Source of the DNA: Halomarina salina
Lineage (GTDB): Archaea > Halobacteriota > Halobacteria > Halobacteriales > Haloarculaceae
Assembly: GCF_023074835.1 (NCBI RefSeq)
Contig: NZ_JALLGW010000001.1
Coordinates: forward strand, 1,240,001 to 1,304,000
Direction of reading: 5' to 3'
DNA: 64,000 nt
This document shows positions 23,647 through 29,149 of the stretch, piece by piece. A program made the position numbers and the translations under genes. Below the pieces are notes generated by a model. It worked only from the letters and a program-made list of their open reading frames with translations, did not search any database and was not told the DNA's origin. Each line of letters opens with the position of its first letter. The stretch's first letter is position 1.

Positions 23647-25764
23647 ATGATGAGTGACTGTGGTGAACGACTCGTAGTGAAACTCTCACGTGGAGCCAAT
23701 GTTCTCACGGTTCTCTGCGTGGGATTGGACGCGGAGCAGACCGAGTCGATAGCCGCGTATCTGGATGGGTTCGGCGAGCAGTCGTGCGAACTGACCGCCG
23801 CGTCGCCCGCGGAGGCGGAGCGAATCGCGGAGCGCGAACAGTTGACGTGCGTCATCGCGCAGTACGACCTGCCCGAGGGCGACGGGCTGTCGGCGCTGAC
23901 GCGCTGTCTCGCGGCCCAGCCGGACCTCCTGACGATACTCGTCTCCCGGCACGACGAGGAGTCGCTCATCGACCGAACCTACGAGGCGGGGGTCGACGAG
24001 TTCGTCCACTACACCGGCCCGGAGAAGGGGCGGGTCGTCGAACACCACCTCTCGACGTACCTCGGGGAGGCGGAGGACGGGGCCAGCCCTCCGCGGACGA
24101 GTCGGTACCTGGAGACGCTCGCGTCGACGACGTCCGACGCCATCGTCTCGGTCGACGAGTCCAGCACCATCCGCTACGCGAACCCGGCGGTGGCCGAGGT
24201 GTTCGGGTACGACCCGTCGGAGGTGGTCGGCGAGCCGCTGACGATGCTGATGCCCGAGGGGCTCACGGACGACCACCGGGCGGGCGTGCGACGGTACCTC
24301 GAAACGGGCGAACGGACGCTCGACTGGGACGATATCGAACTCCCCGGCCGCCACAAAGCGGGCCACCATATCCCGCTGAGCATCTCGTTCTCGGAGTTCT
24401 CCGTGGGCGAGGAGCGCTACTTCACCGGTATCATCCGCGACATCCGGGACCGGAGACGGCTGCAGTCCGAACGCGACCTCTACCACGACGCGACCCAGCA
24501 GATACTCAAGGCCGACTCGTTCCACGAGGGCCTCCGCATCGCGGTCGACGCCATCGGCGAGGCGATGGACTGGCGCTACGGCGAGGCGTGGGTCTGCCCG
24601 GACGGCGAGCACCTCGAACGCGTCCCCGACCCGTACGTCACGTCCCCGGAAACAGAGACGTTCGCCGAGGCGACCGACGACGTGACGTTCCACCTGAACG
24701 AGGGCTCCGTCGGCCGCGTCTGGCAGTCGGGAGAGTCCGAGTGGCTGACCGACGTCGCTACCGACGACGCCCCGTTCTTCCGGTCGGCGGCCGCGACGGA
24801 GGCCGGTCTGCACGCGGCGCTCGGCGTCCCCATCGTCAGCGACGGGACGGTCGTCGCCGTCATGGTGTTCCTCCTCGCGGAGCCACGAGAGCCAGACGAG
24901 ACGATGGTCGACGCGACGAGGACCATCGCCGCCGACCTCGGGCGGTTGATGGAGCGTCTCGAAGCGGAGACGGCGCTCCGCGAGGAGCGCAACCTCAACG
25001 AGCGCATCCTCGAGACCAGCCCGGTCGGTATCGCCATCCTCGAACGGGACGGTACCTTCAGTTACGTCAACGACCGGGCGACGGAGATTCTCCACGTCGG
25101 CGAGTACGACCCGCCGCTCACGGCCGCCGACCTCGACCTCCAGATGGTCTCGTTCGACGGCGAACCGGTCGACACGAGCGGGAACCCCTACCGTCGGGTG
25201 GTGGAGTCGACGGAGTCGGTATCGGGAGAGCTACGCATCGAGACGGACGACGGGCCACGCTGGCTCGCTGTCGACGGCGCACCGCTCGACCACGAGGCCG
25301 GGGAGGGGAGTGCGATGGTGTTCTCCCTGCAGGACGTCACCCAGCGAAAGCTCCGCGAACGCCGCCTGCAGCAGCACGAGGTCGTGATGAACACGGTCAG
25401 CGACGGTCTCTACGCCCTCGACGGGGAGGGACGCTTCGTCGTGGTCAACGACGCGTACTGCCGACTCATCGGGTACGACCGCGAGGAACTCGTCGGGAGG
25501 CCGGCCAGCGAGTTCGTCGAGAGTCGATTGATCGAGGAGGCACGCGCGCTCCAGGAGCAGATTCGGCGTGGCGGTGACGACGAGGCGACGATGGAACTGA
25601 CCCTGACCACCGCGTCGGGTGAGCAGGTCCCCATCGAGGCACGGATTACGCTGTTCGAGTACGAGAAGGCGTCTACGGGCGAACCGGGGTCGTCCGCGAC
25701 ATCAGCGACCGCCAGCGCCGCGAGGAGCGACTCGCTCGCCTCAACGAGGTCGGGCAGGCGCTGA
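23647..25764 (+). CDS. Upstream half of a frameshifted Bat-type sensor: receiver-like, PAS, GAF, PAS, PAS
   Basis: The 705-residue reading frame starts with a receiver-like domain (CVIAQYDLPEGDGLSAL, about 20-135). PAS 1 follows (DAIVSVDESSTIRYANPAVA, about 155-265), then a GAF domain (about 280-445), PAS 2 (ILETSPVGIAILERDGTFSY) and PAS 3 (DGLYALDGEGRFVVVNDAY). Near base 25665 the frame leaves the family pattern and ends in a low-complexity serine/alanine tail. The frame one base back reads EGVYGRTGVVRDISDRQRRE, the expected end of a PAS domain, and joins the next entry. The receiver has Gln where the phosphorylated Asp is expected. The two halves are best read as one gene of about 1,258 codons with a one-base deletion. 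Confidence 0.8.
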   Translation: MMSDCGERLVVKLSRGANVLTVLCVGLDAEQTESIAAYLDGFGEQSCELTAASPAEAERIAEREQLTCVIAQYDLPEGDGLSALTRCLAAQPDLLTILVSRHDEESLIDRTYEAGVDEFVHYTGPEKGRVVEHHLSTYLGEAEDGASPPRTSRYLETLASTTSDAIVSVDESSTIRYANPAVAEVFGYDPSEVVGEPLTMLMPEGLTDDHRAGVRRYLETGERTLDWDDIELPGRHKAGHHIPLSISFSEFSVGEERYFTGIIRDIRDRRRLQSERDLYHDATQQILKADSFHEGLRIAVDAIGEAMDWRYGEAWVCPDGEHLERVPDPYVTSPETETFAEATDDVTFHLNEGSVGRVWQSGESEWLTDVATDDAPFFRSAAATEAGLHAALGVPIVSDGTVVAVMVFLLAEPREPDETMVDATRTIAADLGRLMERLEAETALREERNLNERILETSPVGIAILERDGTFSYVNDRATEILHVGEYDPPLTAADLDLQMVSFDGEPVDTSGNPYRRVVESTESVSGELRIETDDGPRWLAVDGAPLDHEAGEGSAMVFSLQDVTQRKLRERRLQQHEVVMNTVSDGLYALDGEGRFVVVNDAYCRLIGYDREELVGRPASEFVESRLIEEARALQEQIRRGGDDEATMELTLTTASGEQVPIEARITLFEYEKASTGEPGSSATSATASAARSDSLASTRSGRR

Positions 25765-25835
25765 CGACAGCCGAGACGCCCGGCGAGGTCGCCGACATCG
25801 TCGTCGAGGGGGCACAGGAGATACTCGGGCTCCCG

Positions 25836-27425
25836 TTGACGACCATCAAGTACTACAACGAGGCGACCGGCCACCTCGAACCCCAGACGCGGACGCCGGA
25901 ACTCAGGGCGCTCATCGGCGACGACCCGCTGTTCGGCGTCGACTGGCATCTCGCCTGGCAGGCGTTCGTCGACGACGAGGAGCGCATCGTCGACGACATC
26001 GCGGCCGCGGACGTGGAGACGGGCGAGACGCCACTGGGGAGCGCCATGGTGCTCCCGATCGGCGAGCACGGCGTCTTCATCGCCGGGACCGAGACGGCCG
26101 GGTCGTTCACCGACACCGACGTCCTGGTCTCGCGCATCCTCGTCGCGAACACGCTCGCGGCCCTCGACCGCGTCGACCGCGAGCAGGAACTCCGGACCCA
26201 GAAGTCGCGGCTCGAAGAGCACAACGACGCGCTCGAACGGCTCAACCGTCTCAACGGCGTCATCCGGGGGCTCACGGGGAAACTGGTCGAGGCGTCCACT
26301 CGCGAGGAGATAGAGACCGCGGTCTGCGAGGAACTCGCCGGGACGGACCCCTACGTCTTCGCGTGGGTCGCCCAGCAGGGAGCCGTCGGGAACGAGGTCA
26401 CGCCACGGACGAGCGCCGGCCGCGAGGACGGCTACCTCGACGACATCGAGATCACGGTCGACGACAGTCCGACCGGCCAGGGGCCGGCGGGGACGGCGTT
26501 CAAGACGCGCAAACCGGCCGTCCAGAACAACCTCCACGTCGACCCGCCGTTCGAGCCGTGGCGACAGCAGGCGCTCCAGCGCGGCTACCGGGCGGGCATC
26601 TCCATCCCGCTCGCCTACCGCGAGACGGTGTACGGCGTGTTGAACCTCTACGCCGACGAACCGGGCGTGTTCGACGAGATGGAGGTCGCCGTGCTCGGCG
26701 AACTCGGGAACATGGTCGGGTACGCCATCAACGCCATCGAGCGCAAGAGAGCCATCGTCGGCGACGCCGCGGTCGAACTCACGTTCACCGTCACCGACGA
26801 CACCATCCCCGCCATCGGGTTCGCCGACGTGACCGACGGGACGTTCGAGTTCGAGACCCTCGTCGAGCGGCCCGACGGGTCGTTACGGGTGTTCTTCGAG
26901 ACGACCGGCGTCGACCCGGAGACCGTCTACGAGTTCGCCGACAGGACGACGACGGTCGACCACCTGACGTTGCTCACCGAGGGCGAGGAGAGCTGCCGGT
27001 TCGAGGCCATCGTCGGCGAGGACAGCTTCTTCGCCGACCTCGTCTCCTACGGCGCGTACCCGACCGCGATGTACGCCGGGTCGGAGGGTGGCGAGGTCAC
27101 CATCGAACTCCCGCGGAACGGTGACGTCAAGGCGTTCATCCGGATGTTCGTCCGACGGTACGAGGGCGCCGAACTGGTCGCTCGGGTCGAGCAGAACCGA
27201 CCCGTCAGGACCTCTGCGGAGTTCGAGGCGACCTACCGCGACCGACTGACCGAGCGACAGGCGGAGGTGCTCGAGACGGCGTACTTCAGTGGCTTCTTCG
27301 AGTGGCCACGTGAGACGAGCGGGAAGGAACTGGCGGCGCTGCTGGACATCTCGCAACCGACCGTCAGCCGCCACATCCGGACGAGCGAGCGCAAACTGTT
27401 CGGACTGCTGTTCGACGACGAGTAG
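25836..27425 (+). CDS. Downstream half of the Bat-type regulator: GAF, GAF, Bat domain, HTH_10
   Basis: The frame is open from about 25665; TTG at 25836 is only the first plausible start inside it, so the true N-terminus is that of the upstream half. Two GAF domains (LPLTTIKYYNEATGHLEPQT; YVFAWVAQQGAVGNEVTPRT) come first, followed by the bacterio-opsin-activator domain (VELTFTVTDDTIPAIGFADV). The HTH_10 domain is at the C-terminus (LTERQAEVLETAYFSGFFEW, LLDISQPTVSRHIRTSERKL). As an isolated polypeptide it could still bind DNA but would lack the sensor half. It is followed by HalOD1 and small genes in the same direction. Confidence 0.8.
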   Translation: MTTIKYYNEATGHLEPQTRTPELRALIGDDPLFGVDWHLAWQAFVDDEERIVDDIAAADVETGETPLGSAMVLPIGEHGVFIAGTETAGSFTDTDVLVSRILVANTLAALDRVDREQELRTQKSRLEEHNDALERLNRLNGVIRGLTGKLVEASTREEIETAVCEELAGTDPYVFAWVAQQGAVGNEVTPRTSAGREDGYLDDIEITVDDSPTGQGPAGTAFKTRKPAVQNNLHVDPPFEPWRQQALQRGYRAGISIPLAYRETVYGVLNLYADEPGVFDEMEVAVLGELGNMVGYAINAIERKRAIVGDAAVELTFTVTDDTIPAIGFADVTDGTFEFETLVERPDGSLRVFFETTGVDPETVYEFADRTTTVDHLTLLTEGEESCRFEAIVGEDSFFADLVSYGAYPTAMYAGSEGGEVTIELPRNGDVKAFIRMFVRRYEGAELVARVEQNRPVRTSAEFEATYRDRLTERQAEVLETAYFSGFFEWPRETSGKELAALLDISQPTVSRHIRTSERKLFGLLFDDE

Positions 27426-27517: not shown

Positions 27518-27853
27518 ATGACAGACACCACCGTCGATACTACTTCCCTTGCCGACGTTTCGGGTGGCATTACGGACGGTCGGGCCGCCGACTCGCTGCT
27601 CGTCGACATCGTCGAGCGACTGGCCGCCGCGCGCGGCGACGACCCCCTCGACCTCCCGCCGCTCAACGACTACATCGACGTCGACGCCCTCGCGACGCTG
27701 TTCAAAGCACCGGCTGGCGGGCAGTCGGCGGCGTTCGGTTCCGTCACCTTCCGCGTCGAGGAGCACGAGGTCCGCATCTACCAGGACCGGACCATCTACG
27801 TCCACAGGCCAGGCAACGGCGACCGGTCGTCTGCCCTGGAGGGGTCCTTCTGA
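27518..27853 (+). CDS. HalOD1 output-domain protein
   Basis: 111 residues. The region LLVDIVERLAAARGDDPLDL, PPLNDYIDVDALATLF and FGSVTFRVEEHEVRIYQDRT is the HalOD1 (halobacterial output domain 1) pattern, a small alpha/beta domain found alone or fused to signalling proteins; its biochemical role is not established. The ATG at 27518 follows a 5' region with a TATA-like ATTACG near 27482. It is 2 bases from the next small gene, so the two are probably one transcript. Confidence 0.8.
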   Translation: MTDTTVDTTSLADVSGGITDGRAADSLLVDIVERLAAARGDDPLDLPPLNDYIDVDALATLFKAPAGGQSAAFGSVTFRVEEHEVRIYQDRTIYVHRPGNGDRSSALEGSF

Positions 27854-28110: not shown

Positions 28111-28374
28111 ATGAACCAGACATTCAAACTCATCTGCCGAACGTGCGACTACGAACGAACGGTGTCGGGACTCGACCCCGCACTCGACCTCGCTGGGAGT
28201 CACAAGGACGACGAGGGCGAAGACCACTCCGTCGACATCTACTCGTTCGCGTATCTCGCGTCGGGGGTCGACCGGGACCGACTGCCCAGTGCACCGTGGC
28301 TGGACGACACCGACCCGAGGTCGGCCGACCCCTCGGCGGTCGGAGACGACGGCCTCGCCGACACCGACGACTGA
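28111..28374 (+). CDS. Small protein with one CxxC pair
   Basis: 87 residues. The N-terminus FKLICRTCDYERTVSGLDPA has one CxxC knuckle followed by DLAGSHKDDEGEDHSVDIYS, in which two histidines could complete a zinc site. The rest is acidic and disordered. Similar small treble-clef-like proteins are common in haloarchaea and usually unstudied. It stands 97 bases after the preceding small gene. Confidence 0.6.
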   Translation: MNQTFKLICRTCDYERTVSGLDPALDLAGSHKDDEGEDHSVDIYSFAYLASGVDRDRLPSAPWLDDTDPRSADPSAVGDDGLADTDD

Positions 28375-28758
28375 ACCGCCCGCTCCGGTCGCAGCGCTTC
28401 CTGTCCGCTGGTCGTCTCGCTCACCGAGTTCGACGGAAGAAGGGCTCGCTGCGTCCGAGAACCGCTGTAGGTCGTGCTTTCGCGGCGTCTGTAGCGTGTG
28501 GGACGACGTGCTGGCGCGTCCGACCGACCGGTCTCGGCTTCGCTCGTCTTCTCCGTCACCTTCGTCCTCTCCGGGACCGTCGTCCTCTCCGTCACCTCGT
28601 CGTCTTCGTCGTCGCTATCGTCTTCGTCTCGTTTCGTGTTCGTCGCCCCTCGTCGTCGGTCCTCCGGACAGCCGTCCTCGGGCGTCCGTTCCCGTGGGTC
28701 CGGTCTCGTCAGCGTCGCCGCGCACGTCGGTCGGCGCGACTGCCGCTTCGAGACGGCG
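28375..28758. other. Low-complexity intergenic stretch
   Basis: No gene is supported. The middle (about 28540-28640) is a run of CGTC/TTCG triplets giving open frames on several strands with serine- or arginine-only translations, which I treat as noise. It is the tail-to-tail interval between the small-protein genes and the PadR gene. Confidence 0.4.
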
Positions 28759-29091
28759 TCACGGGAGCCGACCGGTCCCCCACTGGTGGTACTCCTGGAG
28801 CGCCTCCACGCCCGCGTCGGAGATGGTGTAGTAGTTCGTCCGGCGGTCGATCTCGCCCTTCGACACCAGTTCGCGGTTGACGAGGGTGTCGAGGTTCGGA
28901 TAGAGCCGCCCGTGCGTTATCTCGCGGTCGGTCTGCTCCTCTAGCTCCTGGCGAATCGTCTGCCCGGACGGCCTGTCCAGGCCGGCGATGCAGTAGAGGA
29001 GGTCCCGCTGGAACCCCGTGAGCTCGTGTATCGTTCGGATGTCTACTCCACTGCCGGAACCGTCGTCGACACCTGCGTTAGACCCCAACAT
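28759..29091 (-). CDS. PadR-family transcriptional regulator
   Basis: 110 residues. The winged helix runs from ELTGFQRDLLYCIAGLDRPS through GQTIRQELEEQTDREITHGR and LYPNLDTLVNRELVSKGEID to RRTNYYTISDAGVEAL, the PadR pattern of haloarchaea. It lacks the long C-terminal dimerisation helix of classical PadR, as is usual for this archaeal subgroup. I chose the ATG at 29091: TCAATAACAA lies about 27 bases upstream as a TATA element. A 21-base perfect palindrome at 29150-29170, upstream of that promoter, could be its operator. Confidence 0.8.
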   Translation of the reverse strand: MLGSNAGVDDGSGSGVDIRTIHELTGFQRDLLYCIAGLDRPSGQTIRQELEEQTDREITHGRLYPNLDTLVNRELVSKGEIDRRTNYYTISDAGVEALQEYHQWGTGRLP

Positions 29092-29149
29092 GGGAGCGTA
29101 CCTTCTAATCAGACGACATTTGTTATTGACTGTCATAACTGCGAGTCGA

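Follow-up and report, generated by a model that had tools for sequence, protein, structure and literature searches.

A one-base frame change divides a Bat-type sensor-regulator gene in the assembled sequence of Halomarina salina

Bat, the bop-inducing factor, is described in a passage of PMC2253796 as a protein with GAF, PAS and HTH domains, and the Bat-type regulators, Halobacterium Bat among them, follow the order REC-PAS-GAF-BAT-HTH_10; the gene family and its architecture are thus already known. Among the routes of gene inactivation treated in PMC4500146, one is the small indel that breaks an otherwise full-length haloarchaeal gene. For fucA1 of Saccharolobus solfataricus, the account given in PMC8211752 is one of programmed frameshifting, with an A-AAA-AAT heptamer and a stem-loop. 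The gene described here lies at 23647-27425 on the plus strand of the window, the whole 64,000-nucleotide stretch of DNA that was analysed. It shares the C-terminal BAT and HTH_10 domains and the sensor domain types of the Bat-type regulators, but differs from those of Halobacterium in having more sensor domains (three PAS and three GAF) and, in the sequence as assembled, in switching reading frame at 25660-25676. With disrupted haloarchaeal genes, the frameshift pseudogenes, it has in common a small indel in an otherwise full-length gene, here seen in the assembled sequence. Among the papers listed in literature searches, none reports this break. The features of the locus are as follows.

23647..25764, plus strand: upstream frame of 705 codons with receiver-like, PAS, GAF, PAS and PAS domains (open reading frame and Pfam)
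25623..27425, plus strand: downstream open frame of 600 codons with the end of the third PAS, then GAF, GAF, BAT and HTH_10 (open reading frame and Pfam)
25623..25764, plus strand: overlap of 142 bases, open in both frames
25660..25676, plus strand: frame-change loop of 17 bases (alignment with homologues; shift placed at 25670 by a frame model)
27518..27853, plus strand: HalOD1-domain neighbour, which also adjoins the intact homologue in H. rubra (L039), Haloarcula pellucida (L043) and Halomicroarcula rubra (L041)
28111..28374, plus strand: 87-aa neighbour with no Pfam match, which also adjoins the homologue in H. rubra (L039) and H. oriensis (L040)

The domain content of both frames agrees with a preliminary description of this DNA, which had read the upstream frame as receiver-like, PAS, GAF, PAS and PAS, and the downstream frame as the end of the last PAS followed by GAF, GAF, Bat and HTH_10. 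Pfam returned Response_reg at 29.8 bits for the upstream frame, slightly below the cut-off of 30.2, together with three PAS stretches and one GAF; for the downstream frame it gave two GAF_2 stretches, BAT (PF15915) at 126.9 bits and HTH_10 (PF04967) at 66.1 bits, the last two above their cut-offs. An NCBIfam search yielded PAS and sigma-70-like matches below their cut-offs and nothing further. A C-terminal pair of BAT and HTH_10, in that order, as expected of a Bat-type protein, is therefore found in the downstream frame, but sensor and output domains do not share one protein here, the sensor lying in frame 1 and the output in frame 3; all seven closest homologues carry REC, the PAS/GAF sensor and the output domains in a single protein. 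Judged from its sequence, the locus as sequenced is a broken gene of the Bat-type family and not a working member. At the position that we take to be the phospho-acceptor of the receiver-like domain (window 23725-24010), assigned by eye from receiver motifs, the residue is Q, with Q, S, E or R at the same place among the seven aligned homologues, which suggests a pseudo-receiver across the whole homologue group.

Elsewhere in this genome, HTH_10 has 71 matches, 70 of which exceed the family cut-off. Four lie in open frames of just 82-91 codons (L081:3687-3842, that is G000:C1:1977686-1977841; C2:619492; C1:1429866; C1:1695834), one of them with an internal TAA; these short frames are likely to be remnants or stand-alone HTH pieces.

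The seven homologues closest to the window gene, each 57% or more identical to it over the downstream half, are all open in one frame across the junction, and they include a second copy in the same genome. Their single frames span 1287 (L010), 1254 (L017), 1258 (L018), 1251 (L043) and 1249 (L044) codons, with L011 and L041 shorter at 1004 and 985 codons; L010 and L018 are the same loci as L040 and L042 (H. oriensis JCM 16495), and L011 is the same as L039 (H. rubra ZS-47-S). The intact paralogue L017 is situated on contig C2 of the window's own genome. More distant homologues (L045, L046 and L047) are likewise uninterrupted. Two of the seven, from H. oriensis and H. rubra, belong to the same genus and have downstream neighbours in common with the window locus, and the recurrence of the HalOD1 and 87-aa genes beside the homologues indicates that the locus is orthologous; intact single-frame orthologues with shared neighbours are what accompanies a frameshift pseudogene. 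The comparison with relatives that had been proposed at the outset thus gives one uninterrupted protein, the opposite of two separately bounded genes. A family-wide search found a match with E<=1e-100 in 77 of 146 genomes; of the matches listed, the window gene alone consists of two adjoining pieces in different frames, at a threshold that would miss short halves. Two other Bat-type genes carry irregularities of their own: a distant one in Halomicroarcula sp. SYNS111 (L052:7176-7197, NZ_CP119794.1; 36% identity) changes frame inside the BAT domain, with tblastn pieces in frames 1 and 3, and another (L120, G114:C50:20218-22308) has one internal TAG in a frame of 1293 codons.

The break itself is delimited by the conserved flanks ARITLFE (frame 1, ending at 25659) and GRTGVVRDISD (frame 3, starting at 25677). 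Between them lie 17 bases in the window and 18 in five of the seven homologues, namely H. oriensis L010, H. rubra L011, Halomicroarcula rubra L041, Haloarcula pellucida L043 and Haloarcula salina L044; the remaining two, L017 of the same genome and L018 of H. oriensis, form a separate paralogue clade with 15 bases. The window loop is exactly one base shorter than the five 18-base loops, the exact base within it being ambiguous, and a net one-base deletion accounts for both halves, as previously proposed. The downstream frame is -1 relative to the upstream frame, and a TGA directly precedes its opening at 25623. Its first start codons are TTG 25836, GTG 26013 and ATG 26046, so that neither ATG nor GTG occurs over 343 bases past the break. 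The last ~33 codons of the upstream frame, at about 25665-25761, form an out-of-frame tail that stops at 25764. The joined frame had been given as 1,258 codons, a count that agrees with initiation at the second ATG (23650).

We queried the position of the break independently using a frame HMM of 19 states in which shifts are allowed, trained on 193 frames of this genome. The model places the missing base at 25670, a call kept at a shift prior of 1e-15 and lost at 1e-20. In a positive control, all 55 single-base losses introduced in silico into L010 were detected, and the intact gene gave no calls. Over 464 kb, made up of the window plus 400 kb of surrounding sequence and holding 359 coding segments longer than 300 nt, the model made 59 shift calls, 3 of which pass a filter, set after the first run on the window, that asks for no ATG/GTG until more than 40 nt past the shift and for 80 aa on each side, and that misses true breaks which chance to have a nearby start. 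The other 56 were removed because an ATG/GTG that could serve as a start lies on or close to the shift, or because one arm is shorter than 80 aa; the majority resemble neighbouring genes that overlap. Only the call at 25670 has long arms (684 and 584 codons), the other two passing calls being candidate shifts at 28772 in the window and at L077:2271. The candidate near 28772 (window 28421-29136, minus strand) lies beside a 125-aa minus-strand open reading frame. None of the ten other loci of this genome with BAT above 100 bits has a shift inside the BAT gene, with L085 and L092 showing a shift call outside it. Across 30 loci, 25 gave a single central segment with no shift, the rows for L103, L104, L106 and part of L120 being uninformative as the model, trained on the window's genome, did not model them. 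A second split Bat gene called by the HMM in the same genus (L122, G005:C1 about 3499329-3501038) was rejected, its upstream segment being an IS66 transposase; this GAF-GAF-BAT-HTH_10 frame with the transposase directly upstream may be a Bat gene that an insertion element has interrupted. The split of a Bat-type sensor-regulator by a one-base frameshift, put forward in the preliminary description, is upheld by the open frames, the Pfam domains, the seven uninterrupted homologues and the HMM call.

Both halves evolve much as their intact counterparts do. End branches are 0.38 for the upstream half (relatives 0.35-0.57) and 0.27 for the downstream half (relatives 0.12-0.31), and pairwise dN and dS resemble those between intact homologues. 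Of the positions that never vary in the other rows, 161 of 172 are retained upstream and 184 of 203 downstream, the downstream retention of 0.906 being narrowly the lowest of eight rows (others 0.911-0.968). Branch lengths and conserved positions thus lie within the range of intact relatives and relaxed constraint after the break was not found, although a very recent break would look alike. Since neither half is faster than in relatives, the break is either recent or an artefact, and long decay does not fit.

Taken together, these observations make it probable that a recent, real frameshift struck a Bat-type gene of the layout divergent receiver-PAS-GAF-PAS-PAS-GAF-GAF-BAT-HTH_10 and severed its output half. 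A net loss of one base would have occurred recently in the loop that leads into the final strand of the third PAS; in a structure predicted for the H. oriensis PAS (mean pLDDT 83.9) this loop sits between the last two strands, E86-98 and E102-111, so that the third PAS of the upstream product is without its final strand. Translation would then run ~33 codons out of frame to the stop at 25764, which implies that the first start gives a product with no DNA-binding domain. The predicted product is a 705-residue sensor fragment that would be without the GAF-GAF-BAT-HTH_10 output half, and the downstream half lacks a start codon of its own close to the break. We infer that the base loss is present in the living cell, and from the domain layout the product is presumably non-functional as a transcription factor.

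The most serious competitor is a gene that is intact in the organism and an assembly that is short of one base. We hold this to be a lesser but real possibility: it accommodates every observation as well, both halves are conserved as in the intact relatives with nothing else broken, and a lone break in a sound gene, with no decay beyond it, is the expected look of an error. Against it, the 17-base loop contains no homopolymer of three or more and the longest homopolymer in 464 kb is 7, so a read error of the homopolymer type is not indicated. The 550,715 bases read contain no ambiguous bases. With 3 of 59 calls in 464 kb resembling possible true breaks, the assembly appears accurate rather than riddled with breaks, and a generally frameshift-ridden assembly was rejected. 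Between the two we favour a recent real frameshift over an assembly error, with moderate confidence.

It is improbable that the locus holds two working genes, the first for a sensor fragment and the second for a GAF-BAT-HTH_10 regulator with an internal start. GTG 26013 or ATG 26046 would yield the second GAF, BAT and HTH_10, and shorter Bat-type frames, for example of 680-721 codons, occur in the same genome; however, such a start would cut the first downstream GAF in mid-domain, the upstream stop at 25764 falls about 250 nt before 26013, homologous residues between the break and 26013 are conserved as elsewhere, and the split is absent from the relatives examined. Programmed -1 ribosomal frameshifting that joins the frames is more doubtful still. 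Its direction and the 142-base overlap resemble archaeal fucA1, where, as set out in PMC8211752, two overlapping frames are likewise related by -1, but the heptamer and stem-loop present there have no counterpart here: no in-frame slippery heptamer X XXY YYZ occurs in 25600-25770 or across the upstream frame, in agreement with the preliminary description, the RNA folds after the site are weaker than shuffles (z +0.39 for 25663-25743 and +1.02 for 25667-25727), and no relative examined has the arrangement. The earlier ranking of decay or error above programmed shifting holds, but phase variation, listed with them, is rejected, there being no homopolymer at the break and, in 25580-25760, no unit of 2-6 bases in three or more tandem copies.

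It is also conceivable, though we think it a long shot, that the split is kept on purpose, either as two proteins (the sensor half plus a GAF-BAT-HTH_10 half with an internal start) or through rare slippage giving a little full-length regulator; a single base loss would then have made a two-piece switch out of a one-component regulator. Annotation should record a single frameshifted gene at this locus and not two proteins. If the break is real, one regulator copy would have been switched off recently, with an intact paralogue remaining on contig C2.
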